Part shown: one piece after another, positions 15,721-56,165 of the stretch
Layout: each line of letters begins with the position of its first letter
Position numbering within the stretch: position 1 is the first letter of the stretch
Assembly: GCA_026545225.1 (NCBI GenBank)
Contig: CM048853.1
Coordinates: 16,928,755-16,992,754, forward strand
DNA: 64,000 bases
From: Cornus controversa
Lineage: Eukaryota; Streptophyta; Magnoliopsida; Cornales; Cornaceae
Direction of reading: 5' to 3'
Notes under the pieces: generated by a model
The model's database searches: none
Told to the model about the DNA's origin: nothing
The model's input: the letters and a program-made list of their open reading frames with translations, nothing else
Translations under genes and position numbers: made by a program

Positions 15721-15722
15721 GT

Positions 15723-15734
15723 TGGTATCAGAGC
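15723..15734 (+). promoter_or_regulatory. Primer binding site, tRNA-iMet type
   Basis: TGGTATCAGAGC, the usual chromovirus primer site complementary to initiator tRNA-Met, two bases after the LTR end. Confidence 0.9.
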
Positions 15735-15777
15735 ATTCCAGGTTCAAGTTTCCTCAGGTTTTAAGGGTCTGTCGTAG

Positions 15778-16345: not shown

Positions 16346-16434
16346 GTCGTAGCGTATCTTCTGCGTTGCATATTCTGATAAATAGAATTCTAAATATAGA
16401 GTTTATCGTATTCTAATCTATCTTTGAAGTATTG

Positions 16435-20400: not shown

Positions 20401-20813
20401 CTCCTATGAAGGGAATTATGCAGTTTGGAAGGAAAGGGAAGCTGGCACCTCGTTTTGTAGGTCCTTTTATGATTACCAACAGGATTGGAGTGGTAGCATA
20501 TAGATTGGCATTACCAGACATGATGCACAGGGTGCACAACATATTTCATGCCTCTATATTGCGAAAAAAACTTAGAGATGAGGATACATAACAGCACATT
20601 GAGGTTGGAGAGATTGAGTTACAACCAGATGCAACATATATGGAGCAGCCTTACTGTATTCTCGTCCGTACGTAGGGTCCAGGTTCTTCGTTCTAGGACT
20701 ATTCCGTTAGTTCGAGTTCAATGGAGCCACCACAATGAGGCAAAGTCCACTTGGGAAAGGGAGGATGAAATAAAAGCAAAGTATCCAAAACTTTTTCTCT
20801 CAGGTATGGGATG
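17425..20813 (+). pseudogene. Chromovirus pol: protease, RT, RNase H, integrase, chromodomain
   Basis: Domains in order: protease with FDTSASYSFVS (active-site Gly changed to Ser) and ILGMDWLSHYHAQVNC; reverse transcriptase with [45 protein letters not shown] and the catalytic FIDDILVYS. RNase H (about 18770-19250) follows, ending in [14 protein letters not shown]. Integrase has the HHCC region (HPGGDKM and CSTCQ), SMDFI, IISDRDPSFV and STAYHPQIDGQTERVH. The C-terminal part reads HNIFHASILRK and then the chromodomain-like VQWSHHNEAKSTWERE. Stops near 17963, 18340, 18738, 19143 and elsewhere, plus frameshifts, break it. The chromodomain places it among chromoviruses, which target heterochromatin. 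Confidence 0.85.
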
Positions 20814-20839
20814 AATTCCGAGGACGGAATTCCTCTTTT

Positions 20840-20852
20840 TAGGGGGGAAGAA
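20840..20852 (+). promoter_or_regulatory. Polypurine tract
   Basis: TAGGGGGGAAGAA directly before the 3' LTR start, the plus-strand primer of the chromovirus. Confidence 0.8.
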
Positions 20853-23686: not shown

Positions 23687-25224
23687 GGCGCCATTTTGTT
23701 CGACGTGCAAAACGTGATAAAATAATATGTAATAGTGTCGTCGTTGTTTTATACCTCGACAAAAGAGAATTTATAAAAACCTTCAAATACTCTACTAAAA
23801 TTAGTAAAGTGGTGAGTAGGGGTCGAACCCACAGAGACTGCCTTGGTTTCATTGTTAAGCTATCAAGATCTTGTCTAATTTAATTGAAAAAGAATTTGTT
23901 TTGTTTTTAATTCTAAGGTGCTGAAATTAAATGAAATGAAATACAACATAAATAAATGGTAGACACTAGAGAGAGGGTCCTGGGAATTCGCTTCACCACC
24001 AACCTTCTGACAATGACAATTGTACTAATTTGGGACGTTTAATCTATGCATTCAGAAAAGAATGGCTACAAGCCAAATTCAGTTCTATCAAGAGGATTCA
24101 TTCAACATACAATTAAGCATAACTCGTCTTCGCTTAGCATGGCCTATACATCTGACTAATTAATGTTGTTATAACCCATCTGTGCTTAGTACGAATTATC
24201 AAAAATTTAAATTGAACGATATGTGAAAACTATTGTATAACCTGTCTTAACAAAATCACAGAAGTTGAAAAGAACAAACCCTAATCATTGCAAATTTGAA
24301 TTCATTCTACAAGAACAAGAATAAATGTGCAATGAATCAATACATTCAAATTGAAAGCAATAACACAACTATTGTTTATATCTCGGTTATACAATCAATG
24401 CACAAAGTAAATTATTCCCAAATTAATATACAACTTAAAACATTGAAATACAGGTTAGGGTTACGTCACTTCCCCAGAATGGTATTTAGCCGCTCATGAT
24501 CGGATGTCCAAGCTTGAACGATGATGAAATCGCCATCCTCTTATCCGTATCGTCACGAATCGCTTCTATATTTCTCTCTGTGCTTTCTCCCTCCAGAATA
24601 CCCTAGTTTTCTCATCTTTTTCTCTCTTTTATTCAGCGAAGCAAACACAAACGGGACACCTCACCTCCCAAAGTGTCAAAATGCGCATAAGAAAATGGCA
24701 CATGCGCCTCAAAAGTGGCATTTCCGCCCAAAAAGTGGCAGCTGCGCAAATAGGGCAGAAAGTTGCCTTAAACGTCTGTTTTAGGAAATTTTCGTGAAAT
24801 ATGAAATTGTACAGAATTGAATTTCCTTCAACCCACATGAAGTTTGGGTCGTTTTAACAATTGTGTACGGAGTTATGGTCTGAATACCAACACGGGTCCA
24901 GGATTTTTTAGGCCTGAATTGGCCCAATCTTCAATGCAAATGGGCCCGTGCTCCTTTTCTTCATTTAAATTTATTTCCAGCCCATTTCTCAGTCCATTTA
25001 GTTTAGATCTTCAAGATAAACATATCTCTCATAGGTCAAGCTTCAGTGATAACTAAATGAGTACCATTTGTAGCCCGATTTCACCATTGTTAATCAGAAT
25101 TACCCTTCATCACCTGAAATTATAAAAAGATTAAAATTATTAATAAAAACATGAAAGAAATATTACTAAGACACTAATTCATATAATTTAGGGATATTGA
25201 ATATGCAATATTCATTACTTATCA
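23687..25224 (-). mobile_element. Athila-related LTR with primer-site stub inserted in the transposase
   Basis: On the minus strand the LTR starts TGATAAGTAATGAATATTGC at 25224 and ends in CA at 23697. It resembles the Athila LTR start (TGATAGGCGTTGAATG) and carries the conserved GGTCGAACCC / GTCGGTGGCTACAAG-like internal words. Beyond the LTR end, ten more bases read AAATGGCGCC (element sense), which match the first bases of the Athila primer site. There is no gag, pol or second LTR. The insert is flanked by the 58-bp duplication. Confidence 0.75.
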
Positions 25225-25282
25225 TCGCCTATAGAATTTCAGCAGATCTTTGTGATGAGTATACAAAAGTTGGCGAGCGCAC
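25225..25282 (+). repeat. 58-bp duplication, right copy
   Basis: Exact copy of 23629-23686, starting directly after the LTR end and continuing into intact transposase sequence. Confidence 0.9.
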
Positions 25283-26339
25283 TGCGATCCAAAGCTTGAA
25301 GAGGTTTTGTGATGCTGTAATTGCATTGTATGCAGACCAGTACCTACGCTCACCAAACGAAAATGACATTGCACGTCTGCTTGAAGAATGGGAGGAAAGA
25401 GGATTCCCAGGTATGCTTGGCTCTACAGATTGTATGCATTGGAAATGGAAGAACTGTCCTACAGCGTGGCATGGCACGCACAAGGGGAGAAGCCGTAAGC
25501 CTACCCTCATACTAGAGGCGATTGCATCAAAAATCTATGGATCTAGCATGCTTTCTTTGGTATGGCTGGTTCACACAATGATGTGAATGTCTTAGATCAT
25601 TCTCCAGTATTCAACCGTATCAATGATACAATGCCTCTGGTTAATTATGTGGTGAATGGGCACCAACGTACATTTGGGTATTACTTATCTGATGGTATAT
25701 ATCCTAAATGGGCAACTTTGATGCAGACCATCCCGCACCCAACTACTGCAAAAGAGAAATTATTTTCTCAAAGACAAGAAGCCGTTAGGAAGGATGTTGA
25801 ACAGGCATTTGGTGTGCTGCAGATAAGGTGGGCTATAACGCATGGACTAGTGTATAATTGGAAAAAAGAAGACCTGAGCAAGATAATGAGAACGTGCATC
25901 ATATTACACAATATGATTATAGAAGACGAACATGATACCAACATTTTGGATTGGACACCACCGCCAGATGAAAATGTCTTCCTTCCACACTACAATCAAG
26001 ACCGATCATTTTTGGCAGCACACATACATACTCGTCGTAATAGGATTCGCAATGGAGATAACAATTTGGATCTCAGGAGAGTTCTCATGAACCATTTGTG
26101 AGATAAATATGGTAATGAATAAGTTGAAAGAAAATATTTTCTTCAATGTAATTTTTCATATTGTTTGTGATAAATAAAAATTATTTGTTTTACTTTTCTT
26201 CTCATTAATATATTGACAATTTATTTAAAAAATAATTCAATAGACAAAGAACTATTTTTTTTATAAAAAATAAAAAGAAACGAAATCATAAGTAAAGAAG
26301 CAATTTTTTTTAGCTAATACAAAGGTAGACAGACCCAAA

Positions 26340-38859: not shown

Positions 38860-39602
38860 AAATATTGAAAAGCTCCGTAAACGGGGTACTGCAGTACCCA
38901 TGCAGTCCCCGAAAACGGCGTTTTAGTTTAAGTAAACATCTAATTACTTTTTTTTTCTCTGCTCTGTTTTAAAGGACCACCTTAATGCATACACGTATAA
39001 AGTTATGTTAGAAAAGGACTTATGGTAGGTGGGCCACCATGATGTTAACCATAGTATAAAAGGGTCTTGTAGCCCCATGATGTTAACCGGACTGTATGCA
39101 TTTAATACATGCACATATAAATTTGAGTAAAAACAAACTCATGGTAGGCCCCACCATTGTCTCCTACTGCACAATAACAATTGTACGCTAACATTTCACG
39201 TACATCGAGAAGTTGGTTCGTAGAGGCGTCACGTGATTATTTAGAAACATTTAATTTGTAATTTTATTATTATTTTATTTTTTTAGTTTTAACTTGAGTG
39301 GTTATACAGTGAGCATAGTGATGTAATAAAGATGTGATTTTATTAGTTGTTATTGGTTTATTGGAGATTATATTTCCTGATATTTAGTTGATGGAATAAA
39401 TTATTTAATATTATGGTAGATGGTTTTAATTATTGAATGAAAATCATGCAACACATGACTAGATGTTATTGTGCTTAAATTTTGGAACCATTAACTGCAT
39501 ATCTGTTGTGTTAAAATCTTGAAGGTATTAGTTCCTATTAACTATTAACTGTTACACTATATATAATTTACCAAGCTCCTTGATCTCTCACTGTCCATCA
39601 AC
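38827..39602 (+). promoter_or_regulatory. Upstream region of the polyketide synthase fragment, promoter-like
   Basis: Follows the Helitron end. It contains two more copies of the ATGATGTTAACCGGACTGTA unit (38995-39165), a G-box CACGTG at about 39229 and a TATA box CTATATATAA at about 39558. A short leader TCTCACTGTCCATCAACAG runs straight into codon Arg of the synthase at 39603. This may be the original promoter and 5' UTR of the gene, with exon 1, the intron and the first part of exon 2 deleted. That is inferred from the motifs only. Confidence 0.45.
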
Positions 39603-39892
39603 AGAGTGATGATCTATCAACAAGGCTGCTTTGCCGGTGGGACCGTTCTTCGTGTCGCCAAGGATCTTGCTGAGAACAATAAAGGGGCACGTGTTCTTGT
39701 GGTGTGCTCAGAGATATGTGCTCTCTTCTTCCGTGGGCCGTCCGATGACCACTTGGACTCTCCTGTAGGCCAGTCACTTTTTAGTGATGGAGCCTCAGCT
39801 GCAATCATCGGTGCAGATCCTGACATGTCAATCGACTGTCCACTGTTTCAAATTGTGTCTGCGTCACAGACTATTCTATCCAATTCTGAAGG
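39603..39892 (+). pseudogene. Type III polyketide synthase (chalcone synthase family), central part
   Basis: About 97 codons from [17 protein letters not shown] (catalytic Cys, Cys164 in alfalfa chalcone synthase numbering) through [28 protein letters not shown] and GADPD to [17 protein letters not shown]. The N-terminal 155 or so residues are missing and the frame is cut at 39892 by a MITE. The segment expected to read TAVTFRGP in chalcone synthase is CALFFRGP, so both active-site Thr positions are changed. This points to a diverged synthase (stilbene-, acridone- or other type) or to decay. The remaining C-terminal part of the same gene is at 48435-48869. The enzyme would condense CoA starters with malonyl-CoA in the cytosol. 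Confidence 0.85.
39885..39892 (+). repeat. 8-bp target duplication of the MITE, left
   Basis: TCTGAAGG. It is matched by TGCGAGGG after the MITE end at 48435-48442 and by TGCGAAGG (opposite strand) at 47474-47481. With the MITE removed, codons S-E-G-A-I of the synthase are continuous. Confidence 0.65.
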
Positions 39893-40213
39893 TAAAGGTG
39901 CACACAATTCAATTTGGTCCGATTCGATTCTTATGATTTTAAAAATATTACCGTTCAATTCAGTTTCACGATTTTGAACTTAATTTTCTATATTATGCAC
40001 ATATATGTATATATTTACCAATAAAATAAAAAAACCAAAATTTGAAATATATATACGATGCTCTTATGTATTGTAGTGTATGATAAGTTAAATTGTCTAC
40101 TAATCAAAATTGAACAACTGTATTGTACAATCTAATATATATATATATATATATATATATGATTACAGTTCGATTCTGGTTTGAAGATCAAAAGAACAGA
40201 ATCGAATTGTTAG
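39893..40213 (+). mobile_element. hAT-type MITE, left half, in the polyketide synthase exon
   Basis: Starts TAAAGGTGCACACAATTCAA; the other end (48434) reads TAGGAGTATACAAAATATT on the opposite strand, an imperfect terminal repeat. The half ends at a palindromic core at 40166-40210 (AGTTCGATTCTG ... CAGAATCGAATT) next to an (AT)n tract at 40136-40160. The partner halves are in the two arms of the large inverted duplication. Confidence 0.7.
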
Positions 40214-41641
40214 TGAATCACCTAAAGGGCTAAACCCTCAAGACAATAAGGCTCTCGCCCAGATGGTGGAACCCACGATCTCACCTAAAAGGCGAGACCC
40301 ACAAGGGTCTCACCCAAAGGGAGTGAACCTTTGGGTGAGACCCTTGTGGTCTTAAAGGACTCGCTCTTTGAATGAGAGCCTCGTGGGTCTTTAAAGGCTG
40401 GTGCATTGTTGTTATGCTAGTGGAATTTTTAGCCTTCCATAACGTCTTCTGCGTTTAGTTGTCATTGTATAAGTAACTGTTGTTGAGAATAAAGGTATCG
40501 TTGGAGAAATAGTCTTTAGAAGCTCTATATAAACTCAAGTGAAATACACTTCTCGTTACTATTTTTATCTTTTAACAAGGGGATAATTTGTTGCGAGCTA
40601 TATTTGACTTATCCTTTAATAAGAGGAGAGAGTTGGCTCACCATATTGTTAGGGGATTTGGCTCGACCTTTTAATATAGGGAGGTAATTGTAGCTCCGGG
40701 CTTTATTTAGACCTTTATGGGCATTATTCAACAAGAGAAATCCCTACGGGGTTTGATAGCGACCTTCGCCTTTTTAAATAAAGTCTCTCTCATGAGTTGT
40801 GCCCCAACAAGGTTTAGTGATCTCAAGATTCATTCATTTCACCTTTTTCGTAAAAGCCCTTTCGTAAGGTGTGCCTCAATAGAGTTTAGTAATGATCTCT
40901 GGAATAACGCATCCCACCTTTTTCAATAAAGGCCCTCTCATGAGGTGTGCCTAGTGGAGTTTAGTAATGATCTTAAGATTAACTAATCCTGCCTTTTTCA
41001 AAAAAGACCCTATGGTGAGTTATTCCCTAGTGATGTTTAACAATGTTATCATGATTCATTCGTCCCGCCTTTTTCACTAAAGGCTATTAGGTGAGGTTTA
41101 CCCTAATGGGATTTAACAATAGTCTCAAAATTCATTCACCCCGCATTTTTCAATTGAGACTCTTTGGTGAGGTGTGCCTAAATGGGGTTTAACAATGTTA
41201 TCGAGATTCATTCATGTCACCTTTTTCAGTAAAGGCACTCTGGTGAGTTGTGCCCCAATGGGATTTAGTAATGTGGAGCTTTCTAAGCTCGCTCTTTTAA
41301 CAAAAAGGTTGGTAGATTTGATTTTTGGGAGCTCGCCCCTTTATATGCCCCCAATTTTTAATTTTTAATAACTCTGTAATGCCAACTTTATAGTGAATGG
41401 AGAGACCTTGAGTCAAAAATTCATCTTGTAGGTTCTGTAGCAGCGGAGGACTTGCAATGATAGTCATACCTTGTGATATAAATCATGTATTGATTTATTG
41501 TTGGAGGCACAAAGAATTTCTTAAAGAATCAAATCTTTATTCTTGATAAGAGAAAAAGAATCCTTGTCCCTAATAGGGGATAGAAAGAGTCTCATTATTG
41601 ATAAGATAGAGAAAGAGTCCCATCTTTGATAAGAGAGAGAA
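40214..41641 (-). other. Unassigned sequence with tandem repeats outside the left arm
   Basis: No gene. 40250-40400 holds a hairpin of GAGACCCACAAGGGTCTCAC words and inverted copies. 40500-40560 has TATA-like CTCTATATAAACTC. 40740-41290 is a degenerate tandem repeat of about 60-70 bp (units with CCTTTTTCAATAAAGGC, GGTGAGGTGTGCC and GGGTTTAGTAATG). From 41540 a 30-bp AGAGAAAGAGTC/CTTGTCCTTA repeat runs into the arm. It may be the internal or LTR part of the Tat-like element continued at 41642-42380, but no coding domain supports this. Confidence 0.45.
40740..41290. repeat. Degenerate tandem repeat, about 60-70 bp unit, eight or more copies
   Basis: Each unit combines CCTTTTTCANTAAAGGCNCT, GGTGAGGTGTGCC and AATGGGRTTTARYAATGNT followed by TTCATTC. 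Units are about 70-80 percent alike by eye. Non-coding. Confidence 0.75.
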
Positions 41642-41760
41642 ACAGTCTTGTTCTTAGCAAGAGAAAGAAAGAGTCATGTCCTTGGCAGGAGAGACAAAGA
41701 GTCCCGTCCTTAATAGGAGAGAGAAAGATTTTTGTCCTTAGTAGGAAAGAAAAAGAGGGT
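41540..41760. repeat. 30-bp tandem repeat crossing the arm border
   Basis: Seven to eight units of about 30 bp, pattern AGAGAAAGAGTCNYGTCCTT.ATAGG. The outer end of the inverted duplication (41642) lies inside this array; only the last four units are found in the other arm (54185-54299). Confidence 0.8.
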
Positions 41761-42375
41761 TCCAACCTTGATACCGGGGTGCGTGGTACTCTGGGTGGAA
41801 CGGTTGCTTCCCTTTTAATGTCTTGAAAAAATATGCCCTAGGTCTGAATGACCTCACAATGTCCCCCAATTGGCTAAGGAGCCTAAATCAAAACTTATTT
41901 TTGTTTATTAGTTGGCCACCAAGCCGATTCAATAAGTGCAAGATAGAGTGTGCCATGCTAGTACTAGGCAAGGCGTTCTTCCTAGAATAAGGCAAGGTGT
42001 TTTATGCTTGTATAAGGCAAGACATGCCTTCTTAAATTAGGCAAGGTGTATTTGGCTAGTTCAAACTTTGATAAGATGTTAAATGGGGACCTTGACATGG
42101 AAACACATTCTGTAGATTGTGTAATAGCAGATGACCTCCGAAGACATAAATTCCACCAAACTATAGGCTTATAGTGATTGGTTAATGGTTGTGTCCAAAC
42201 CAGATCATATCGGAATGTAGGAACTAAACGTTTCCCACAGACGGTGCCAGCTGTTAAAGTTAAAATCCACAAAACCCAATTTGGTGCGAGTAGCCAATAA
42301 AATAAAGGAGTTAGGGCCAAGGCCAGTGGGGTACTGGCCGAGGTCACTCTGACGATCAAGTTAGTGCTTGATATG
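41642..42375 (-). mobile_element. Tat-type gypsy fragment (LTR end, primer site, leader), left arm
   Basis: On the minus strand: ACTTGATCGTCAGAGTGACC, CACTGGCCTTGGCCCTAACT, then TTAACAGCTGGCACCGTCTG and GGGAAACG. That is the LTR end plus the GCTGGCACCGTCTGTGGGAA-type primer region used by Tat elements, comparable to GTTGACGCCGTCTGTGGGAA at about 60793-60812. The leader below it is non-coding. The same fragment is at 53561-54299 in plus orientation. Confidence 0.65.
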
Positions 42376-42380
42376 ATATA

Positions 42381-44559
42381 TGTCACGCCCCGGAACCCGG
42401 ACCGCCGGGACTCCCCCGGACCGACCCGAATCCCGAGTGTGAACCCGTGAGATCACCCTCACGATATAACCATCACCTGATCATACAGCCTCAATTTTCT
42501 ATTATTTTTACAAAAATTAGGCATAACCCATTCTAATAAATCAGATCCTGATGTCATTCCTGCTTGAAATTCAAATGGACACTTATGGGCACGTGTCCCC
42601 CCAGCATTTATATCTAACATTCAAAATGGACACTTCTGGGCACGTGTCCCCCCAGCATTCTTATAATATGCATATTACAATAAAAATAATATTCAATCCT
42701 TGAATGTCCGTGTCATATACATACATCCAATGAAATGTACTACTAGGATAAATTACCCAACATACAATGTCCAGTTACATTTAATCCAAATGTACAACTC
42801 ATCAAATATCTTGGACATAAATTAGATTCTAAGGAGTCTAATCACTACCTCTGTAACTGGTACTATGAGTCCCCTAACTGACTCCGTAATCAGCAATACC
42901 AGCAAAACCTGGGAGGGGTGAGCTCAAAGGCCCAACAAGGTATGCCGAACCATACTATCACTGCTGTAGCAGGTCGATCCTCACATATTCTCAAAAACAT
43001 ACACATTTAATATATCACAATATTTAAATCATGCTCCACCTAGCATACATGAACCAACAACGCATATGGCAAATATAACACATATGTGCATATAAATCAA
43101 CTACACTTGATTCTTGAAATCATTTTCAACATGCTTGAAAGCAGTAACATCCAGCACCAATATGTATATAGAACATATATGTCAAAGTATTTACATAACC
43201 AATGTAAATCATCTATCACATTCCTTACTCAACAAGTAGCAATCTCAAATGTAATGAAGATGCATTTAAACCGTAAAACATGCTTAGAAGCAAACATCCA
43301 ACATATATCATGTTCATTCACAAGAAACGCATATATAAGAATGCGTTAAATACATAGCATGCTTCATAATAGATAATGTAAGCAAGTTCACACACTTGTC
43401 CCTCTCCCGGATTCAACCCAATACCCTAACATGATTCTTAACCAATCATGTGACTGAGACGCCTCCCACACAATTCCAACACCGCCACCGAGTCATCACA
43501 TACTCCAAGGTGGTTAGATAGTTTATCACTGAGTCATCACATACGCCAAGGTGATTAAATGTGTTATCACTGAGTGATCACATACTCCGAGGTGGTTAGA
43601 TGGCTTCCTTGCCGAGTAAATCACATACTCCAAGGCGGTTAGATAGTTTATCACCGAGTCGTCACATACTCCAAGGTGATTAAATGTGTTATCACTGAGT
43701 CATCACATACTCCAAGGTGGTTACATCGTTTTGAGATTTTCACCGAGTCATCACATACTCCAAGGTGAATAAGTTACTCTCCCACATTTCCCGTTTTTCT
43801 CACAACAACCCCATACATGTATTTCGGACATATATGAATCAAGAATCTAAGATTCATGTTACACAATACATCAGCTAGTTAAAAAAGAACATAGCACGCG
43901 TCTCATCTCCCCCAAGCCAGACATATATTCACCTATACATGTAAAATCTAGCATACAGTTCAGATATGCTCATAAACCTCACTTAAGCACATTTTAGTCA
44001 TGCTTCACCAATGCATACATTTTCTATATACAGATAGCATGCATTTTATTCACGTAAACCCACATGTAATCATGTACATGTCAAACCATGCATATAAATC
44101 ACATATGCACATACACTAGCATAAATATAGTCATGCTCTCATTCAATGCATGTATTCACTATAAGTAATTACATACATTCCACTCATAATATATAAACAC
44201 ATATATATTACGTCACCCACATATGTATTAAGAACATATAAAATACTTAGCACATCATAATCATGCTTTTCAAATACTCGCCAATACCATATTCAAATAT
44301 AAAGCATGCATTTCGACTATTACACCAATGTATAATTGCATATACATTTCACCTATGCAAAAATTCTACCTATGCATATAAAACAACACATAGCTAAACA
44401 TATACGTAATTTAGCATACTTTTCATAGATTTTTATCTATACCGTACATGCATATCACAATGCAAGGAAACATTTAAATTTAATCATGCTTTCACATCCC
44501 AAATATATATACACACCTATATATATTTTCACTCACATCCCACGCATATACAATATCCA

Positions 44560-44603
<44 letters not shown>

Positions 44604-46108
44604 CATATATATATACAAATGTCACATATGATTAAATTAAGAGCATATGCAAATTAATCAATATAATTAAAGTATATACGTAGGAGATAGAGGGAAGAAT
44701 CAACTTGCCTTAGGTCCCGCTTTCACTAAGCTTGCGCCTGCAAAGCGGTCCATCTCCAAGTCCCGGTCCAGTCCCATATCAAAGCCCACACAAACGATCC
44801 ACTGAACCATTTTCCCCCTAATTTCCATGTTCGGTCCAAATTTATTTAATTGGGAACCAAACCCAAATCTTCAGGCCCAACTTTATTTCAGCCCCTTTCT
44901 AATCTCAAATCCAACCCGATTACGATCCAAGTTGGCAGCCCACTTCTAGCCCATGCACAATTCAGGCCCATATGATCTCCATCATCTAACACCATCTTAT
45001 GAGTCCAATTAAAATACCAAACCCATGGCCCAACTTCAAGACCCACCAGTCATGAAACATCAGCCACAACCCACTACCCAAGCCACCAACTCACCATGGC
45101 AGCCACCAACAAGCCAACCATCATGGACCCAAAATCAACCCAGCCGCAAGCACCAACCATGGCTGTCCAAAGAAAACTGAACCCATCTCCATCGGAACCA
45201 ACTGAAGCTAGCCCCTTCGGTACCATCATAGACCCCGAAATTATGAGCAACCCGAGGAGAAAACCCACCATCAGCTGAGTCTCCACCATCCACGGTCCCT
45301 TGTCCAAGAAGGCCCGTGAGCCCAGCCGTAACACCACCCAAACAGGCCACTTCCGGCCACCACAACACCAAACCAACAGCCACCAAGCTCCCTCAACCGA
45401 GCCACCAAGCAGGCCACTCAACCACCGAACCCACCTGCAACCTCAATTGGTCACTCACCACGGAAGACCCAACTGAACCGTCATAGCCGAGCCAAGCCGA
45501 ACTCAGCTAAAATCGCGCCGTGAAAACCCAGCTCCCAAAGTCGAGTCTCCACCCACGCGCCACTGCAGGAGCGCCATTATAGGAAGCCGAAACCACCTGT
45601 GAACCGCCATACGCAGCAGAGCCTCCACCGTCGCTTGTCGCACCAGCCGAGATACCGCCTTCAGCTGTGTCAAACACGGCTCAACCGTGTCTCCACCACC
45701 GTCGTCGCAAGCCACACCCAGCCACCTCACCTTCGTGAACCCGAAGGCCCACCGCCGGTGCTCCTCCTCTCTCACGACTCCATCTTCTCTCTCTCTCTCT
45801 CTCTACTTTCTCTCTCTAACCATCTCGGCTCTCTCTCTCTTTTTTGATTTCTCTCTTCCTTCTTCCTTTTTCTTTTCTTTTTCCTTTTCTTTCTATTCTT
45901 TTCTTTTAATATACACCACACATCATCCCAACATATCTCCTCCACATATATATATATATTATTTATATATATACATAACATCACACAATACATGTATTCA
46001 CATGTATTTTCCCACACTTACTTATATAAATACAAAGGTCCCTCTCTATTTATCCATAATCACATATAGACCCACCATGTGTATATATATATATATATTT
46101 ATGTCTCC

Positions 46109-46139
<31 letters not shown>

Positions 46140-46344
46140 CACACTCTCACCATATAACAAAATATATATATATTTTCATATATATATATATATAACTACA
46201 TCCTTCATCTTCCTATATATATATAATTCCATATGTATATATATATATAACATCTTTCCGAATTTAATTTATTCAAAATAAATAAATAAATAAATCCAGC
46301 CAAAATTCACCCAGAACCGGTCAATATTAATCCGGGTCGTTACA
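42381..46344 (-). repeat. Solo LTR (chromovirus-like, about 4 kb), left-arm copy
   Basis: On the minus strand starts TGTAACGACCCGG at 46344 and ends GGGGCGTGACA at 42381. Flanks are TATGT and TATAT (one mismatch), consistent with a 5-bp duplication. It carries seven units of the roughly 43-bp tandem repeat at 43481-43775. There is no internal retrotransposon domain, hence a solo LTR. Frames such as 45074-45421 and 45503-45775 are low-complexity Trp/Gly-rich artefacts of GC-rich LTR sequence. Confidence 0.75.
43481..43775 (-). repeat. Tandem repeat in the left solo LTR, seven units
   Basis: Unit of about 43 bp built on CTTGGAGTATGTGATGACTC (minus strand), alternating with spacer words ATAAACTATCTA and ATAACACATTTA. 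The mirror array at 52123-52452 has eight units. Confidence 0.85.
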
Positions 46345-47045
46345 ACATAAAAGAAAGTAATTCTGTGTGATTTAGGTATACATTTGTAGGTGCCCCGACT
46401 CTCCTCTCTATTGGAGAGTATTTGGATGGTTACATTAAAGTAGGCAACCCTTTCGATTACTTTTTCCAATTCAACTCAAAGAATAAAGTAGTTATCCTTA
46501 TCCTTATACTATAACTTATCTCATGCATTTGACTCCTTTGCCTCTCGGACTTCCTATCAATCTGAATTTTTCATATCAATTTCAAAATAAAAGTGATACA
46601 AAATTGAATTAAATGTGGTCTAATGTTGATTTAACAGTGTAAATTTAGAGTTCAAGACGTCCTATTTTAATTGTGAAGATAAGTGGGTGATATGCCATGT
46701 TTTGCAAGATTTGATTTACACCGCAGAGTATTACGGGAAGTGGGGTACTTGAGAGAATTTTAATCATTCTACAAAAGGGCCAAAATCTTTACCACTAGAA
46801 ACCAAAACACTATTAAAAGTGAAAATTTAACTTAAAACATTTTTAGCTTAATCAAGTAGAAAACAGAACATTCACTTAGATACATGTAATTTAAAAGTAC
46901 AACTGCTCGTGTCTCTTAAATTGAAAATTTAAAAGACAAAACAAGCCATTTATTATAATATTTATTTGTTTACTCCTCGTGCTCCTCCAAATTAAACATA
47001 CATGTTTAATAACAACGAGGAAGTAAGTCTAAAATTGCAGCAAAC
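46345..47045 (-). other. 3' flank of the synthase, left-arm copy
   Basis: A/T-rich DNA mirrored at 48870-49571. It includes AATAAATATTATAATAAATG-like poly(A) signal candidates about 100 bp after the synthase stop (minus strand). No other gene was recognised. Confidence 0.5.
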
Positions 47046-47481
47046 TCAGTGGTTTGGAATTGTTGGGGCACTATGCAACACGACAGTCTCTACTGTCAAA
47101 CCAGGCCCGAACCCAAAAAGAACACCCCAATCGAACCCTTCACCTGTGGTGGTCTTCCCTTCCTCCATAGATTTCTTCCTCATTTCATCCAAAATGAACA
47201 GGATACAAGCACTCACTATGTTACCGTATTCGCTCAACATATGCTGACTTGCCCTTAATTTCTCCTTCGGGAGATCGAGTTTGGCCTCGATTTGGTCAAG
47301 AATAGCTGGGCCACCGGGGTGAGCGATCAAAAATAGTGAGTTCCAATCATTGATGCCAATCGGACCGAAAGCTTTCGTTAAAGACTTTTCAATGTTTTTC
47401 AAGATCAATTCAGACACGTCCTTCCTCAAATGAAATGTGAGCCCTGCCTCACGCAAGTGTAAATTTATGGCACCTTCGCAT
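47046..47481 (-). pseudogene. Type III polyketide synthase, C-terminal part, left-arm copy
   Basis: On the minus strand the gene resumes after the MITE target duplication: [20 protein letters not shown], then [20 protein letters not shown] with the catalytic His, [13 protein letters not shown] with the catalytic Asn, and the family tail [19 protein letters not shown] to a stop at 47046. About 142 codons. It is an inverted copy of 48435-48869, differing at about a dozen residues (WIAHPGG is LIAHPGG here; SRHVLSEYG is SQHMLSEYG). There is no upstream catalytic-Cys part in this orientation, so it is a detached half-gene. Residues upstream in the same frame (MFNYRTISN...) are translated MITE sequence, not protein. 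Confidence 0.85.
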
Positions 47482-47679
47482 AGGAGTATACAAAATATTG
47501 TTAGAACCAATAAATTAGATCGGTCTGAAACAAATTGAACAGTGTGATTTGATATGGTTCTATAATTGAACAATTTAGTTTTGGTTTTAAAATCAAAGAA
47601 CTATTGATTATGGTTCAATTATGATTATAGTTCGATTCTGGTTTGAAGATCAAAAGAACAGAATCGAACTATTAGTAAT

Positions 47680-47690
<11 letters not shown>
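47482..47690 (-). mobile_element. MITE right half, left-arm copy
   Basis: Minus-strand end ...ATTTTGTATACTCCTA at 47482. It extends to the palindromic core GTTCGATTCTG...CAGAATCGAAC at 47628-47669, then meets an (AT)n tract. Confidence 0.75.
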
Positions 47691-47716
<26 letters not shown>

Positions 47717-47899
47717 CTTCAGTATGAATATGAAGGGACTGAGCATATGATGAAAAGTCCACCCTACTTTTTTTTGAATTCAAACCCTTGTGATCTATGT
47801 TCCCATCTTACCTGGATTACAACTAGATTCGGTTACATCCGCGTGTCAGTTAAATGTGATTCCAGTTTGTGAAGAAAAAAGATATGATTCAGAGAAGAA

Positions 47900-48205
47900 T
47901 CATTAAAAATTAGAAACTAGAATCACATTCGATCCAATATTAAACCTTTAAACAGAACGTTTTTCAAAAACACAATCTTTATTCTCATAGAATGGATATA
48001 CTCTGGGACAGAAGGATTCGAACCTCCGAATAGAGGGAGCAAAACCAATTGCCTTACCGCTTGGCCACGCCCCATTTCTATTTCTATTCGACACCAATAA
48101 AGACTAATATTGGTATTGATTGTTCGTCAATTCCAGTCCAAATATATATAGAATAAATTAGATTTTGGCTAGGATTTTGACACGTGTAGATATAGAATTA
48201 AACTG
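47900..48205 (-). other. Nuclear copy of plastid DNA (NUPT), rps16-trnQ-psbK intergenic region
   Basis: The trnQ-UUG-like sequence is embedded in its usual plastid flanks: TCATAGAATGGATATACTCT before, and CCATTTCTATTTCTATTCGA, then GACTAATATTGGTATTGATT and TTGACACGTGTAGATATAGA after, which I recognise from plastid trnQ-psbK spacers. Its presence outside both arms shows it came in with, or after, the duplication event. Confidence 0.7.
48003..48074 (-). pseudogene. trnQ-UUG: Plastid trnQ-UUG, nuclear pseudogene copy
   Basis: 72 nt on the minus strand: acceptor TGGGGCG/TGTCCCA, D-arm GCCAAGCGGTAAGGC, T-arm GGAGGTTCGAATCCTTC. The anticodon loop TTTTGCT still has UUG at the anticodon position. 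The anticodon stem is damaged (ATTGG against CCCTC pairs only at two positions), so it is not expected to work as a tRNA. Being plastid-derived, it has no reason to be transcribed here. Confidence 0.85.
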
Positions 48206-48229
48206 AATATATATATATATATATATATA

Positions 48230-48434
48230 GTACTTATTACTAACAGTTCAATTCTGTTCTTTTGAGCTTCAAACCAGAATCGAACTGTAATCATAATTGA
48301 ACCATAATCAATAGTTCTTTGATTTTAAAACCAAAACTAAATTGTTCAATTATAGAACCATATCAAATCACACAATTCAATTTGTTTCGGACCAGTCTAA
48401 TTTATTGGTTCTAACAATATTTTGTATACTCCTA
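48230..48434 (+). mobile_element. MITE right half, right-arm copy
   Basis: From the palindromic core (GTTCAATTCTG...CAGAATCGAAC, 48246-48288) to the terminal ATTTTGTATACTCCTA at 48434, followed by the target duplication TGCGAGGG and the synthase frame. Confidence 0.75.
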
Positions 48435-48869
48435 TGCGAGGGTGCCATAAATTTACACTTGTGTGAGGCAGGGCTCACATTTCATTTGAGGAAGGACGTG
48501 TCTGAATTGATCTCAAAAAACATTGAAAAGTCTTTAACGAAAGCTTTCGGTCCGATTGGCATCAATGATTGGAACTCACTATTTTGGATCGCTCACCCCG
48601 GTGGCCCAACTATTCTTGACCAAATCGAGGCCAAACTCGATCTCCCGAAGGAGAAATTAAGGGCAAGTCGGCATGTGTTGAGCGAATACGGTAACATAGT
48701 GAGTGCTTGTATCCTGTTCGTTTTGGACGAAATGAGGAAGAAGTCTATAGAGGAAGGGAAGACCACCACAGGTGAAGGGTTTGATTGGGGTGTTCTTTTT
48801 GGGTTCGGGCCTGGTTTGACAGTAAAGACTGTCATGTTGCATAGTGCCCCAACAATTCCAAACCACTGA
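48435..48869 (+). pseudogene. Type III polyketide synthase, C-terminal part, right-arm copy
   Basis: Plus-strand continuation of the gene begun at 39603: [35 protein letters not shown] (catalytic His), [13 protein letters not shown] (catalytic Asn) and the C-terminal [17 protein letters not shown] to a stop at 48867-48869. It shares orientation and codon phase with the central part 8.5 kb upstream; the separation is due to the MITE insertion and the inverted duplication between its two halves. With the left copy it forms a facing pair separated by about 950 bp. It is non-functional as a protein gene, and the sequence itself shows no sign of transcription. Confidence 0.85.
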
Positions 48870-49571
48870 GTTTGTTGCAATTTTAGACTTACTTACTCAT
48901 TGTTATTAAACATGTATGTTTAATTTGGAGGAGCACGAGGAGTAAACAAATAAATATTATAATAAATGGCTTGTTTTGTCTTTTAAATTTTCAATTTAAG
49001 AGACACGAGCAGTTGTACTTTTAAATTACATGTATCTAAGTGAATGCTCTATTTTCTACTTGATTAAGCTAAAAATGTTTTAAGTTAAATTTTCACTTTT
49101 AATAGTGTTTTGGTTTCTAGTGGTAAAGATTTTGGCCCTTTTGTAGAATGATTAAAATTCTCTCAAGTACCCCACTTTCCCGTAATACTCTGCGGTGTAA
49201 ATCAAATCTTGCAAAACATGACATATCACCCGCTTATCTTCACAGTTAAAACAGGACGTCTTGAACTCTAAATTTACACTGTTAAATCAACGTTAGACCA
49301 CATTTATTTCAATTTTGTATCACTTTTATTTTGAAATTGATATGAAAAATTCAGATTGATAGGAAGTCCGAGAGGCAAAGGAGTCAAATGCATGAGATAA
49401 GTTATAGTATAAGGATAAGGATAACTGCTTTATTCTTTGAGTTGAATTGGAAAAAGTAATCGAAAGGGTTGCCTACTTTAATGTAACCATCCAAATACTC
49501 TCCAATAGAGAGGAGAGTCGGGGCACCTACAAATGTATACCTAAATCACACAGAATTACTTTCTGTTATGC
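48870..49571 (+). other. 3' flank of the synthase, right-arm copy
   Basis: A/T-rich DNA, mirror of 46345-47045. AATAAATATTATAATAAATG at about 48948 may have been the poly(A) signal region of the synthase gene. No gene. Confidence 0.5.
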
Positions 49572-51290
49572 TGTAACGACCCAGATTAATGTTGATCGGT
49601 TCCGGGTGAATTTTGGCCGGATTTATTTATTTATTTTTTTTGAATAAATTAAATTCGGAAAGATGTTATATATATATACATATGGAATTATATATATATA
49701 GGAAGATGAAGGATGTAGTTATATATATATATGAAAATATATATATATATATTGTTATATGGTGAGAGTGTGTATATATATATATATACACATTTATGGA
49801 GACATAAATATATATATATATATACACATGGTGGGTCTATATGTGATTATGGATAAATAGAGAGGGACCTTTGTATTTATATAAGTAAGTGTGGAAAAAT
49901 ATATGTGAATACATGTATTGTGTGATGTTATGTATATATATAAATAATATATATATATATATATATATGTGGAGGAGATATGTTGGGATGATGTGTGGTG
50001 TATATTAAAAGAAAAGAAGAGAAAGAAAAGGAAAAAGAAAAGAAAAAGGAAGAAGGAAGAGAGAAATCAGAAAAGAGAGAGAGAGCCGAGATGGCTAGAG
50101 AGAGAAAGTAGAGAGAGAGAGAAGATGGAGTCGTGAGAGAGGAGGAGCACCGGCGGTGGGCCTTTGGGTTCGCGAAGGTGAGGTGGTTGGGTGTGGCTCG
50201 CGATGATGGTGGTGGAGACATGGCTAAGCCGTGTAAGGCGGTCTCTCGGCTGGTGCGACAAGTGACGGTGGAGGCTCTACTGCGTATGGCGGTTCATAGG
50301 TGGTTTCGGCTTCCTGTAATGGTGCTCCAGCAGTGGCGCGTGGGTGGAGACTCGACTTTGGGAGCTGGGTTTTCACGGCACAATTTTGGCTGAGTTCGGC
50401 TTGGCTCGACTGTGACGGTTCGGTTGGGTCTTTCGTGGTGAGTGACCGATTGAGGCTGCAAGTGGGTTCAGTGGTTAAGTGGCCTGCTTGGTGGCTCGGT
50501 TGAGGGAGCTTGGTGGCTATCGGTTGGGTGTTATGGTGGCCGAAAGTGGCTTGTTTGGGTGGTGTTACGGCTGGGCTCACGGGCCTTCTTGGACAAGGGA
50601 CTGTGGATGGTGGAGACTCGGCTGATGGTGGGTTTTCTCCTTGGGTTGCTCATGATTTCGGGGTCTATGATGGTACCGAAGGGGCTAGCTTCGGTTGGTT
50701 CCGATGGAGATGGGTTCAGTTTTCTTTGGACAGCCGTGGTTGGTGCTTGCGGTTGGGTTGATTTTGGGTCCATGATGGTTGGCTTGTTGGTGGCTGCCAT
50801 GGTGAGTTGGTGGCTTGGGTAGTGGGTTGTGGCTGATGTTTCATGACTGGTGGGTCTTGAAGTTGGGCCATGGGTTTGGTATTTTAATTGGACTCATAAG
50901 ATGGTGTTAGATGATGGAGATCATATGGGCCTGAATTGTGCATGGGCTAGAAGTGGGCTGCCAACTTGGATCGTAATCAAGTTGGATTTGAGAATAGAAA
51001 AGGGCTGAAATAAAGTTGGGCCTGAAGATTTGGGTTTGGTTCCCAATTAAATAAATTTGGACCGAACATGGAAATTAGGGGGAAAATGGTTCAGTGGATC
51101 GTTTGTGTGGGCTTTGATATGGGACTGAACCGGGACTTGGAGATGGACCGCTTTGCAGGCGCAAGCTTAGTGAAAGCGGGACCTAAGGCAAGTTGATTCT
51201 TCCCTCTATCTCCTACGTATATACTTTAATTATATTGATTAATTTGCATATGCTCTTAATTTAATCATATGTGATATTTGTATATATATA

Positions 51291-51330
<40 letters not shown>

Positions 51331-53560
51331 TGGATATTGTATATGCGTGGGATGTGAGTAAAAATATATATTGGTGTGTATATATATTTGGGATGTGAAA
51401 GCATGATTAAATTTAAATGCTTCCTTGCATTGTGATATGCATGTATGGTATAGATAAAAATCTATGAAAAGTATGCTAAATTACGTATATGTTTAGCTAT
51501 GTGTTGTTTTATATGTATAGGTAGAATTTATGCATAGGTGAAATGTATATGCAATTATACATTGGTGTAGTAGTAGAAATGCATGCTTTATATTTGAATA
51601 TGGTATTGGCGAGCATTTGAAAAGCATGATTATGATGTGCTAAGTGTTTGATATGTTCTTAATACATGTGTGGGTGACGTAATATATATGTGTTTATATA
51701 TTGTGAGTGGAATGTATGTAATTACTTGTAGTGAATACATGCATTGAATGAGAGCATGACTATATTTATGCTAGTGTATGTGCATATGTGATTTATATGC
51801 ATGGTTTGACATTTACGTGATTGCATGTGGGTTTACGTGAATGAAATGCATGCTATCTGTATATAAAAAATGTATGCATTGGTGAAGCATGACTAAAATG
51901 TGCTTAAGTGAGGTTTATGAGCATATGTGAACTGTATGCTAGATTTTACATGTATAGGTGAATATATGTGTGGCTTGGGGGAGATGAGACGCGTGCTATG
52001 TTCCTTTTTAACTAGCTGATGTATTGTGTAGCATGAATCTTAGATGCTTGATTCATATATGTCCGAAATACATGTATGGGACTGTTGTGAGAAAAACAGG
52101 AAATGTGGGAGAGTAACTTATTCACCTTGGAGTATGTGATGACTCGGTGAAAATCTCAAAACGATGTAACCACCTTGGAGTATGTGATGACTCGGTGATA
52201 ACACATTTAATCACCTTGGAGTATGTGACGACTCGGTGATAAACTATCTAACCGCCTTGGAGTATGTGATTTACTCGGTGAGGAAGCCATCTAACCACCT
52301 CGGAGTATGTGATGACTCGGTGATAACCCATTTAATCACCTTGGCATATGTGATGAATCGGTGATAAACTATCTAACCACCTTGGAGTATGTGATGACTT
52401 GGTGATGAATTCCAAAACCAACTAATCACCTTGGAGTATGTGATGACTCGGTGGCGGTGTTGGAATTGTGTGGGAGGCGTCTCGGTCACATGATTGGTTA
52501 AGAATCATGTTAGGGTATTGGGTTGAATCCGGGAGAGGGACAAATGTGTGAACTTGCTTACATTATCTATTGTGAAGTATGCTATGTATTTAACGCATTC
52601 TTATATATGCGTTTCTTGTGAATGAACATGATATATGTTGGATGTTTGCTTCTAAGCATGTTTTACGGTTTAAATGCATCTTCATTGCATTTGAGATTGC
52701 TACTTGTTGAGTAGGGAATGTGATAGATGATTTACATTGGTTATGTAAATGCTTTGACATATATGTTCTATATACATATTGGTGCTAGATGTTACTACTT
52801 TCAAGCATGTTGAAAATGATTTCAAGAATCAAGTGTAGTTGATTTATATGCACATATGTGTTATATTTTCCATATGCGTTGTTGGTTCATGTATGCTAAG
52901 TGGAGCATGATTTAAATATTGTGATATATTTAAATGTGTATGTTTTTGAGAATATGTGAGGATCGACCTGCTGCAGCAGTGATAGTATGGTTTGGCATAC
53001 CTTGTTGGGCCTTTGAGCTCACCCCCTCCCAGGTTTTGCTGGTATTGCTGATTACGGAGTCAGTTAGGGGACTCATAGTACCAGTTGCAGTGGTAGTGAT
53101 TAGACTCCTTAGAATCTAATTTATGTCCAAGATATTTGATGAGTTGTACATTTGGATTAAATGTAACTGGACATTGTACGTTGGGTAATTTATCCTAGTA
53201 GTACATTTCATTGGATGTATGTATATGAGACGGACATTCAGGGACTGAATATTATTTTTATTGTAATATGCATGTTGTAGGAATGCTGGGGGGACACGTG
53301 CCCAGAAGTGTCCATTTTGAATGTTAGATATAAATGCTGGGGGGACACGTGCCCATAAGTATCCATTTGAATTTAAAGCAGGAATGACATCAGGATCTGA
53401 TTTATTAGAATGGGTCATGCCCAATTTTCATGAAAATAATAGGAAATTGAGGTTGTATGATCAGGTGATGGTTATATCGTGAGGGTGATCTCACGGGTTC
53501 ATACTCGGGATTCGGGTCGGTCCGGGGGAGTCCCGGCGGTCCGGGTTTCGGGGCGTGACA
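49572..53560 (+). repeat. Solo LTR (chromovirus-like, about 4 kb), right-arm copy
   Basis: TGTAACGACCCAGATTAATG at 49572 to TTTCGGGGCGTGACA at 53560; flanks TATGC and TATAT. Layout: (AT)n-rich start, GA/CT-rich block 49990-50130, GC-rich block 50130-50870, A/T-rich block, the 43-bp tandem repeat 52123-52452, then the LTR-end motif TTTGAGCTCACCCCCTCCCA at about 53017. ORFs inside (50133-50393, 50510-50822, 52934-53119) lack any domain. Confidence 0.75.
52123..52452 (+). repeat. Tandem repeat in the right solo LTR, eight units
   Basis: Eight units of about 43 bp on CTTGGAGTATGTGATGACTC, with alternating spacers ATAACACATTTAATCA and ATAAACTATCTAACC, suggesting an older dimer unit of about 85 bp. 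Confidence 0.85.
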
Positions 53561-54299
53561 TATATCATATCAAGCACTAACTTGATCGTCAGAGTGACTT
53601 CGGCCAGCACCTCACTGGCCTTGGCCCTAACTCCTTTATTTTATTGGCTACTCGCACCAAATTGGGTTTTGTGAATTTTAACTTTAACAGCTGGCACCGT
53701 CTGTGAGAAACGTTTAGTTCCTACATTCCGATATGATCTGGTTTGGACGCAACCATTAACCAATCACTATAAGCCTATAGTTTGGTGGAATTTATGTCTT
53801 CGGAGGTCATCTGCTATTACACAATCTACAGAATGTGTTTCCATGTCAAGGTCCCCATTTAACATCTTATCAAAGTTTGAACTAGCCAAATACACCTTGC
53901 CTAATTTAAGAAGGCATGTCTTGCCTTATATAAGCATAAAACACCTTGCTTTATTCTAGGAGGAACGCCTTGCCTAGTACTAGCATGGCACACTCTGTCT
54001 TGCACTTATTGAATCGGCTTGGTGGCCAACTAATAAACAGAAATAAGTTTTGATTTAGGCTCCTTAGCCAATTGGGGGACATTGTGAGGTCATTCAGACC
54101 TAGGGCATATTTTTTTGAGACATTAAAAGGGAAGCAATCGTTCCACCCAGAGTACCACGCACCCGAGTATCAAGGTTGGAACCCTCTTTTTCTTTCCTAC
54201 TAAGGACAAAAATCTTTCTCTCTCCTATTAAGGACGGGACTCTTTGTCTTTCCTGCCAAGGACATGACTCTTTCTCTCTCTTGTTAAGAATAAGACTGT
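53561..54299 (+). mobile_element. Tat-type gypsy fragment, right arm
   Basis: Plus orientation: ACTTGATCGTCAGAGTGACT, then ACTTTAACAGCTGGCACCGT and GTGAGAAACG (primer region), a leader with CACCTTGCCTAA/GGCATGTCTTGCC words (53890-54000) and four units of the 30-bp repeat. It has no coding domain and ends where copia sequence begins. Confidence 0.65.
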
Positions 54300-54335
54300 C
54301 ACGCCCTGAAGTTATTTGCACCTCTTGTTATGTGA

Positions 54336-56165
54336 CAAATAGAGTTATCATTATAAAAATCATTGCTAAAACCCCATATGAAATATGGAATGAGAAGAAG
54401 TCCATTATTAGCTACTTTAAAGTTTTTGGTTATAAACGTTTTGTCTTAAATGACAAAGATAATTTAGAAAAATTTGATGCCAAATCTGATGAAGGATTTT
54501 TCTAGGATATTCATCTAGAAGCAAAGGTTATAGAGTGTTTAACAAAAGAACACTAACGATTATAAAATCCATACATGTCATATTTGATGAATCAGTACCC
54601 CTACCTCTCAAAAGAGTTCTAGATGATAATGGTGAAGTTATTGAGATAGAAGAGAAAAATAGTACCCCTAGCATTGACACTAAGAATGATGAGTCAACAC
54701 TTGATGATTCTCCAAAGGATAAATCAGGTGATGAACATTCCTTAGAAGAAAGAAATGATAACCTTCCTAAGAGTTGGAAGTTTGTACAAAATCACCCAAT
54801 AGGTTAAATCATTGGTGATTCATCTAAAGGATTTACCACAAGATCCAAACTTAACAATATATGCAATCATTCGGCATTTGTATCTCAACTTGAATCTAAG
54901 AACTTCTATGAGGCCAAAAATGATGAGTCTTGGGTCCTTGCAATACAAGAATACCTAAATCAATTTGAAAGAAATCAAGTTTGAGACTTAGTTCTTAGAC
55001 CTAAAGATAAAACCATCATTGGCACCTAATGAATTTTTAGAAATAGAAATGATGAATTGGGTGTCATTACTAGGAACAAAACAAGCCTTGTCGCTAAAGG
55101 TTATAATTAAGAAAGAATTGACTATGAAGAAACCTTTACATCTGTAGCTATATTAGAAGCCTTTAGAATGCTACTTGCTTTTGCATCCAACAAAAACTTT
55201 AAGTTATATCAAATGAATGTGAAAAGTGCTTTTCTAAATGGCCTAATAGAAGAAGAAGTGTTTGTTGAATAACCACTGGGTTTTAAAAATCATGATTTTC
55301 CAAATCATTATTCAAATTGTTAAAAGCCATATATGATTTAAAACAAGCTCCAAGAGCTTAGTACGAGAGATTAAGTGATTTTTTACTTAAAAATGGTTTC
55401 ATTAGAGGATATATTGATAACACTCTATTTACCAAAACCATAAGTGAAAATTTGTTGATCATTTAAATATATATTAATGATATCATTTTTGGTTCAACAA
55501 ATGACAAGTTATGTAGAGAATTTTCTTCTAGCATGCAAAAGATTTTGAAATTAGCATGATGGGATAACTCAATTTCTTCTTAGGTTTGCAAATCAAACAA
55601 ACACTTGATGGCATTTTCATTTGTCAATTTAAGTATGTTAAAGATTTGTTAAAGAAATTCGGCTTGGAGGAAGCCAAACATGCCAAGACTCCAAGAGTCC
55701 CTCCTCTACTCTAAGATAAAGATAAAAAAGAAAAGGATATCAATATCAAGAAATATAGAGGAATGATTGAAAATCTATTATATTGAACTGCTAGTAGACC
55801 AGACATTATGCTTAGCGTTTGCTTATGTGCTAGATTTCAATCTTGTCTTAAATAATCACATTTAAATCCCAATAAACATATTTTCAAATATTTAAATGGC
55901 ACAATTGATTAGGAGTTTAGTATCCAAGAAATACTTCTCTTGATCTCATTAGCTATTCGGATGCCAACAATGCTAGTTGCAAGATTGATAGGAAAAGCGC
56001 AAGCAACACTTGTCACTTCTTAGGACATTCACTTATTTTTTGGTTATGTAAGAAACAAAATTTCATTACTTTATCAACTACAAAAACAGAATATGTAGCT
56101 GCCGAAAGTAGTTGTGCCCAAACGATCTATATTAAACAATAACAACAAGATTTTTGTCTTATACT
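54336..56165 (+). pseudogene. SIRE/Maximus-type Ty1/copia pol remnant
   Basis: Plus-strand pieces in order. Integrase C-terminal region: AKTPYEIWNEKKSIISYFKV, KFDAKSDEGFF and RVFNKRTL, followed by an acidic linker. Reverse transcriptase: DELGVITRNKTSLVAKGYN, QMNVKSAFLNGLIEEEVFVE, AIYDLKQAPRA, and the catalytic YVDD region read as YINDIIFGSTND (first Asp lost). RNase H: SDANNASCKIDRKSASNTCH and QNFITLSTTKTEYVAAESS. At least fifteen stops and several frameshifts are visible. The order integrase before RT shows copia, and the motifs fit the SIRE lineage. Gag, protease, LTRs and the first part of integrase are absent. The 5' border (54300-54335) is the outer end of the inverted duplication. Confidence 0.85.

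Follow-up and report, generated by a model that had tools for sequence, protein, structure and literature searches.

We analysed a stretch of 64,000 nucleotides of the Cornus controversa genome (assembly GCA_026545225.1, contig CM048853.1, here C9, C9:16928755-16992754; the window), which holds an inverted duplication of the 3' part of a type III polyketide synthase gene, its downstream flank and a solo long terminal repeat (LTR), with plastid DNA at its centre. The inverted duplication is genuine and belongs to a known type of rearrangement, with an unusual plastid-DNA loop; it was probably produced by fold-back repair of a break in the (TA)n tract of a synthase intron, around that loop, followed by template switches and rejoining. 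Searching the whole assembly (771.7 Mb, 61 contigs), we found on contig C2 two paralogous loci, C2A (from 88806001) and C2B (from 88866001), with the same gene and flank as C9. Apart from gaps, C9 follows the order of C2A between ~26 kb of the window and 40160; right of 54300 no collinearity with C2 was found (110 kb compared), so that the palindrome lies at the end of the block common to the two contigs. As judged from these alignments, the C9 locus is a paralogue of the C2 loci, and the latter keep the ancestral order. Positions are window coordinates on the + strand unless marked, and those of C2A and C2B follow local numbering.

On C2, exon 3 of the synthase gene is followed by ~0.7 kb of flank, an unoccupied LTR site and further flank. 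The derived order on the + strand of C9 begins with the end of exon 2, the 5' half of the intron, (TA)n to 40160, a 55-bp inverted piece of the intron and a flipped segment; from ~40350 it goes on with inverted flank, LTR, flank, exon 3, the 3' half of the intron and (TA)n to 47714; plastid DNA to 48206, (TA)n, the same region uninverted to 54299 and a copia-like fragment complete it. Between the two halves of the intron, C9 thus has ~8 kb of extra sequence, made up of an inverted 7.4-kb copy of the downstream region and 0.5 kb of plastid DNA. The features are as follows:

39570-39891, + strand: exon 2 of the synthase, 3' part only (39597-39899 matches Pfam Chal_sti_synt_N, E 1e-37; same order as C2A from local position 9484)
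39892-40134, + strand: 5' half of intron 2 (aligned with C2A and C2B; GT after ...TCTGAAG)
40135-40160, + strand: (TA)n at the left breakpoint (in C2A and C2B a single (TA)n here leads straight into the 3' half)
40161-40217, - strand: short inverted fragment of the intron 3' half (C2A local ~10161 to 10107; 61-bp match, 96.7%)
40219-40340, no strand assigned: segment flipped relative to C2B, adjoining a 51-bp imperfect hairpin (40299-40349)
40350-42380, - strand: outer left arm, gene flank (40662-42380 is C2A 13151-11433 inverted, 94.0%; 40350-40894 is C2B inverted, 84.1%), of which 41642-42380 has a partner in the right arm and 40350-41641 has none
42381-46344, + strand: solo LTR of the left arm, TG...CA, 3964 bp (flanks ATATA and ACATA; empty site in C2A)
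46345-47045, - strand: synthase 3' flank, left arm (from the C2 comparison)
47046-47473, - strand: synthase exon 3, left arm (open frame; 93% amino-acid identity to right-arm exon 3)
47474-47685, - strand: 3' half of intron 2, left arm
47686-47714: (TA)14.5 tract, inner end of the left arm
47715-48206, no strand assigned: spacer, plastid DNA from the trnQ(UUG) region (93-94% to a block on contig C5; 97% over the first 313 bp to contig C28)
48003-48074, - strand: decayed plastid-type tRNA-Gln gene within the spacer (ARAGORN, Rfam RF00005; the C5 copy is tRNA-Gln(UUG))
48207-48229: (TA)n tract, inner end of the right arm
48230-48441, + strand: 3' half of intron 2, right arm
48442-48869, + strand: synthase exon 3, right arm (open frame; Chal_sti_synt_C, E 2.1e-60 for 48450-48866)
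48870-49571, + strand: synthase 3' flank, right arm
49572-53560, - strand: solo LTR of the right arm, TG...CA, 3989 bp (flanks TATGC and TATAT)
53561-54299, + strand: outer right arm, cut at 54299 (C2A 11433-12170, 93.6%)

Self-BLAST of the window returned the palindrome as two inverted pairs, 43486-47708 against 52404-48207 (4234 columns, 95.7%) and 41642-43767 against 54299-52171 (2140 columns, 94.7%), which together join 41642-47708 to its inverted counterpart at 54299-48207. A preliminary description of this DNA, made from the sequence by eye, had placed inverted components of about 6 kb at 41642-47700 and 48215-54299, and the self-comparison bears this out with corrected borders. The length of 6 kb holds for the paired portion; the left arm is really ~7.4 kb long and exceeds what survives of its right partner, which is shortened on its outer side by the cut at 54299. 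Position 41642 is merely the end point of the right partner, and inverted C2-homologous sequence runs on to ~40350, with a piece in flipped orientation beyond the left arm reaching ~40223. By comparison with C2, the right arm has the ancestral orientation and the left arm is the inverted copy. Among other inverted pairs within 20 kb spacing, surveyed in ~224 kb (110 kb of C2 and 114 kb of C9, which is not a random sample), the next longest was 644 bp.

The arms differ by a few percent, as described earlier: 192 substitutions were counted at 6010 aligned sites over 41642-47685 (160 transitions and 32 transversions), plus indels. One of these makes the tandem array of the right arm longer by 49 bp, or one extra unit of the 41-bp period, in agreement with the 7 and 8 units counted before. 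The longest stretch without a difference between the arms is 226 bp, not above chance (simulated P 0.11), and we saw no clear sign of gene conversion between the arms in these run lengths. The same figures bear on the possibility that two haplotypes, or the parts of a chimeric read, were joined in opposite orientation in the assembly. No allelic copy of the arms occurs among the matches listed elsewhere in the genome, which would suit such an artefact; a chimera with a missed adapter, however, predicts near-identical arms, and the observed ones are neither near-identical nor marked by an excess of long identical runs. The window contains no N, plastid DNA and an inverted fragment sit at the junctions, and the ancestral positions at which the two arms end are not the same. 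We therefore regard a misassembly as improbable.

The synthase gene supplies the landmarks of the rearrangement. In C2A and C2B, exons 1, 2 and 3 are all open (three of these six exons gave Pfam matches), and exon 3 was found at 90% amino-acid identity or more in four places, namely the two arms, C2A and C2B. Both C2 genes have, between exons 2 and 3, a complete extra GT-AG intron of ~0.4 kb that has (TA)n halfway along and splits the coding region at ...SEG|AIN.... On C5, three relatives with 75-78% amino-acid identity match within open frames of 342 residues, long enough to cross the intron site, and the intron therefore seems, from these frames, to be particular to the C2/C9 group. What had been taken for half of a miniature inverted-repeat transposable element in each arm is the 3' half of this intron. 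The arms had also been said to hold half a polyketide synthase gene; exon 3 is indeed present in both, with the truncated 5' sides of the two copies pointing toward the centre, and another part of the gene, the end of exon 2, lies outside them at 39570-39891. C9 has lost exon 1 and the beginning of exon 2: ~2.2 kb of C2A is missing between 39545 and 39570, where the two sides are joined through ~24 bp of filler. At 48440, the right arm has GG in place of the acceptor AG that this intron shows in C2A, C2B and the left arm. The solved chalcone synthase that matches best is 8v8m, to which exons 2 and 3 of C2A can be aligned over their whole length; they read AINLHL, CALFFRG and YGNIVSAC where 8v8m has AIDGHL, TAVTFRG and YGNMSSAC. 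Set against what we take to be the active-site residues of chalcone synthase, these differences indicate that the enzyme is probably a synthase other than chalcone synthase.

The centre of the palindrome is occupied by DNA that is single-copy in the window and that neither C2A nor C2B contains. The whole spacer is matched by a longer, plastid-like block on C5 carrying trnS(GCU) and trnQ(UUG); the C28 copy continues beyond its left edge and four others (L029, L030, L033 and L036) beyond its right edge, so that both edges are cuts through plastid-derived DNA, at (TA)n. On the strength of these matches we identify the spacer as nuclear plastid DNA (NUPT). The C5 block was considered as direct donor and set aside, as it has no derived change in common with the spacer in the 313 sites compared with C28. 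C28 itself may be mitochondrial or nuclear plastid DNA. The 10 kb read of this 69.5-kb contig (L037, C28:7001-17000) showed short plastid-like frames, presumably matK- and rps16-like, and no tRNA. Counting derived sites in the spacer gave 11 of 494, or 17 of 494 when undecided sites were included. Against the load of the arms outside the LTR (55 of 4154 sites per arm), this corresponds to P 0.11 for 11 sites and P 0.001 for 17; against the arms including the LTR (189 of 12012), to P 0.27 and P 0.004. On this count the spacer would be at least as old as the duplication.

Both inner ends of the arms and the left breakpoint coincide with the same simple repeat. The window has nine (TA)n tracts of at least 20 bp, covering 0.37% of its length, and three junctions sit on such tracts, where C2A and C2B have one unbroken (TA)n. 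The left side of the break is retained and C2-collinear to 40160. Direct and inverted copies thus flank a non-duplicated spacer, and inverted homology is present at the spacer edges in the form of the (TA)n tracts at 47686-47714 and 48207-48229. Since (TA)n is its own reverse complement, two tracts on one strand are able to pair. Under the fold-back reading, the chromosome would have broken within the (TA)n tract of the intron, plastid DNA having been captured before or during the break; the broken right-hand 3' end would have folded back, with its two (TA)n tracts paired and the plastid fragment as the loop. Synthesis outward over ~7.4 kb would then have copied the intron, exon 3, flank and LTR, the polymerase would have switched template close to the hairpin and again at the intron, before the product was rejoined to the left-hand end at the (TA)n left there. 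At a later time the outer part of the original right arm would have been lost at the copia junction, and the arms would have diverged independently. Fold-back copying from an attached plastid end would yield the inner junctions observed and a spacer in single copy. The earlier proposal of a single fold-back or template-switch event is upheld by the inner (TA)n ends around this spacer, and is not supported as far as it meant one simple step with 6-kb arms: the left junction holds the 55-bp inverted piece of the intron and the flipped segment, and the arms are unequal.

Two other routes to this arrangement were weighed. An inversion of ~40.2-47.7 kb at (TA)n, together with a separate, adjacent duplication of the same segment, would place the left segment inverted directly behind the 5' part of the gene, as it is found, and the DNA right of 54300, not collinear with the C2 compared, also suits a history in two steps. 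A plain inversion nevertheless predicts the DNA that follows the flank on C2 to the right of 47708, where we found plastid DNA and a second copy starting from the same (TA)n; two independent events at one short tract are also less economical, and we hold this history to be rather unlikely. A mobile element with 6-kb terminal inverted repeats would share the symmetry of the arms about a short centre. Its outer ends would be expected to match and to show a target-site duplication, whereas here they are asymmetric and lie at different ancestral positions, gene flank on the left and abutment on a copia-like coding region on the right; exon, intron and flank follow one another in the arms as on C2, and exon 3 occurs at 90% amino-acid identity or more in the four places named above. 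We give such an element hardly any credence.

The LTR gives the order of events. Each arm copy has TG...CA ends, a target duplication, an empty counterpart site and no internal domain, as a solo LTR does, and a self-comparison revealed within it the 41-bp array and no terminal direct repeats. The LTR is absent from the corresponding site in C2A and C2B and lies behind the gene on C9 only; C2A reads TATAT at this site. One copy of the target duplication is TATAT, and the other is TATGT in the left arm and TATGC in the right, so that the duplication is now imperfect by one base (left) or two (right), a pattern that fits an A>G change before the inverted duplication and a T>C change after it. We searched for the LTR family with the first 1060 bp, scoring the best 40 of 7102 first-look candidates. 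The family is abundant; within these 40, the two arm copies were 97% alike and all other listed copies at most 90%, so that two independent insertions are very unlikely. The empty C2 site, the A>G change in both arms and the 97% identity support the view, already put forward in the preliminary description, that the duplication postdates the insertion of the solo LTR.

To place the duplication relative to the split between C2 and C9, we computed Kimura two-parameter (K2P) distances and polarised changes with C2A as the reference for assigning arm changes. The arms differ by 0.028 in both non-LTR segments (57 substitutions at 2077 sites) and by 0.035 in the LTR, compared with 0.047-0.068 between arm and C2A in the same segments and 0.061 between C2A and C2B (inner segment). 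In other segments C9 and C2A are 0.035 apart for the exon 2/intron remnant, 0.062 for the outer left flank and 0.048, 0.078 and 0.078 upstream. From these distances the duplication appears younger than the C2-C9 split, at roughly half its depth over the arm segments; with the remnant at 0.035 and flanks up to 0.078, the timetable is rough. Polarisation gave 33 right-arm changes, 22 left-arm changes, 79 common to the arms versus C2A and 2 unresolved, in line with arms that have aged apart. Transitions between the arms, per site, amounted to 0.169 at CG, 0.132 at CHG and 0.042 at CHH, an enrichment that fits cytosine methylation. Changes of C>T or G>A made up 41 of 55 on the arms and 34 of 56 on the C2A and arm-stem branches, a pair compared by counts only. 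Arm-specific deamination after the duplication was not clear (P 0.11 against the stem alone, P 0.17 for transitions against transversions); the values of P 0.003 and 0.029, also obtained, include the unpolarised C2B branch.

Several of these observations weigh against the fold-back account as we have set it out. The mutation load of the spacer is compatible with plastid DNA arriving before as well as with the duplication, and the spacers of published fold-backs are native neighbouring DNA, while this one is plastid and absent from C2. The flipped segment (40219-40340) is read from C2B alone, the sole reference for it. The DNA right of 54300 matches the order of none of the 110 kb of C2 compared. 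The exon 2/intron remnant is nearer to C2A than the arms are, and other flanks are farther. Finally, differences between the arms are somewhat clustered (variance/mean 1.63 in 250-bp bins), with a peak at ~45.2-45.8 kb.

Comparable structures have been described elsewhere. In fold-back inverted duplications of human chromosomes, the spacer is short and single-copy, a short inverted homology is found at its edge, and insertions are present at 5 of 21 junctions (PMC3907307). They resemble the C9 locus in their inverted and direct copies, spacer and inverted homology at the spacer edge; they accompany terminal deletions, translocations or rings, whereas the C9 duplication is kilobase-sized and old, with a plastid spacer between (TA)n tracts (PMC3907307). 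In Saccharomyces cerevisiae, fold-back inversions are primed by single-stranded DNA hairpins with median loops of 5 to 35.5 nt (PMC7467729). Hairpin-primed copying followed by secondary rearrangements is what we propose for C9, but the yeast events were experimental and selected, with loops far below the 0.5 kb of C9 (PMC7467729). In titles and abstracts of the literature, we found no case of a nuclear inverted duplication with a plastid-DNA loop. Old fold-backs seldom preserve the ancestral state; here, unrearranged paralogues resolve most breakpoints to a few bases, and the locus gives the order of LTR insertion and duplication and makes a role for (TA)n and for captured plastid DNA testable.

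On the fold-back reading, the locus is a repair scar, which could give a hairpin RNA if it were transcribed. A maintained silencing locus, compatible with a fold-back origin, would go further: small RNAs from the hairpin would target the synthase genes of C2, in the way that inverted chalcone synthase repeats (GmIRCHS and the CHS1-3-4 cluster) silence their gene family at the soybean I locus (PMC13051633; PMC3804491). GmIRCHS is described there as a tail-to-tail repeat of 1,087 bp with a 78-bp gap and a DnaJ promoter, from which double-stranded RNA was detected (PMC13051633). Set beside this description, the C9 locus is likewise an inverted repeat that arose naturally from a truncated member of the chalcone synthase superfamily whose paralogues lie elsewhere, and differs in that its truncated 5' sides face the centre, its gap is 0.5 kb, its arms are 6 kb long, its gene is probably not a chalcone synthase and it is not known to be transcribed (PMC13051633). 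It also recalls the origin of plant miRNA genes by inverted duplication, as outlined in PMC3237417, in that the duplicated gene could target its parent; it differs in its arms, which are kilobases long. Exon 3 is open in both arms, and its 21-mers that recur identically in C2A exon 3 number 161 of 401 (left) and 142 of 400 (right), and in C2B exon 3 119 of 401 and 98 of 400, so that a hairpin transcript could act on both genes. The per-site enrichment of CG and CHG transitions between the arms also speaks for silencing. Against it, exon 1 and ~2.2 kb are missing from the left remnant, and the methylation-like bias is not clearly arm-specific; we consider a maintained silencing function unlikely. 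A broader conjecture, which we put forward only as a rather long shot, is that plastid capture split the (TA)n into two complementary tracts around a loop and so created a fold-back-prone site, that insertions of organelle DNA at simple repeats give rise to palindromes in plant genomes in this manner, and that the event possibly founded a hairpin-RNA locus acting on the C2 synthase genes. In any case, the locus offers a candidate for a naturally occurring inverted repeat of a polyketide synthase in a plant other than soybean.

Beyond the right border of the palindrome lies one further feature:

54307-56142, + strand: pol fragment that we take to be copia-like, beginning inside coding sequence (from open reading frames; multi-copy from ~54306-54320)

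Of four other copies of this fragment, three (L045, L046 and L047) keep matching L043 for 480 bp or more in the upstream direction; L044 does not match it in that order. The adjoining outer end of the arms had been called a Tat fragment; in one search with 53900-54299 (best 40 of 284 candidates scored), we found matches only to both arms and both C2 loci, and the region looks like low-copy gene flank on this basis. Frames that are presumably Tat-like occur at ~57.7-60 kb. Just before the copia-like fragment, 54297-54306 reads TGTCACGCCC, the first ten bases of the arm LTR. This could be a relic of another insertion or chance, the latter being allowed for because three of the ten bases are common to the native flank.

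Elsewhere in the window, a retrotransposon-like pair of direct repeats at 13273-22291 (91.7% and 84.8% in two pieces) is more diverged than the palindrome arms. An Rfam match to the plant snoRNA R71 lies at 9281-9386, between retrotransposon-like frames, and two long open frames at 25170-26101 resemble what we take to be a plant PIF/Harbinger-type transposase.

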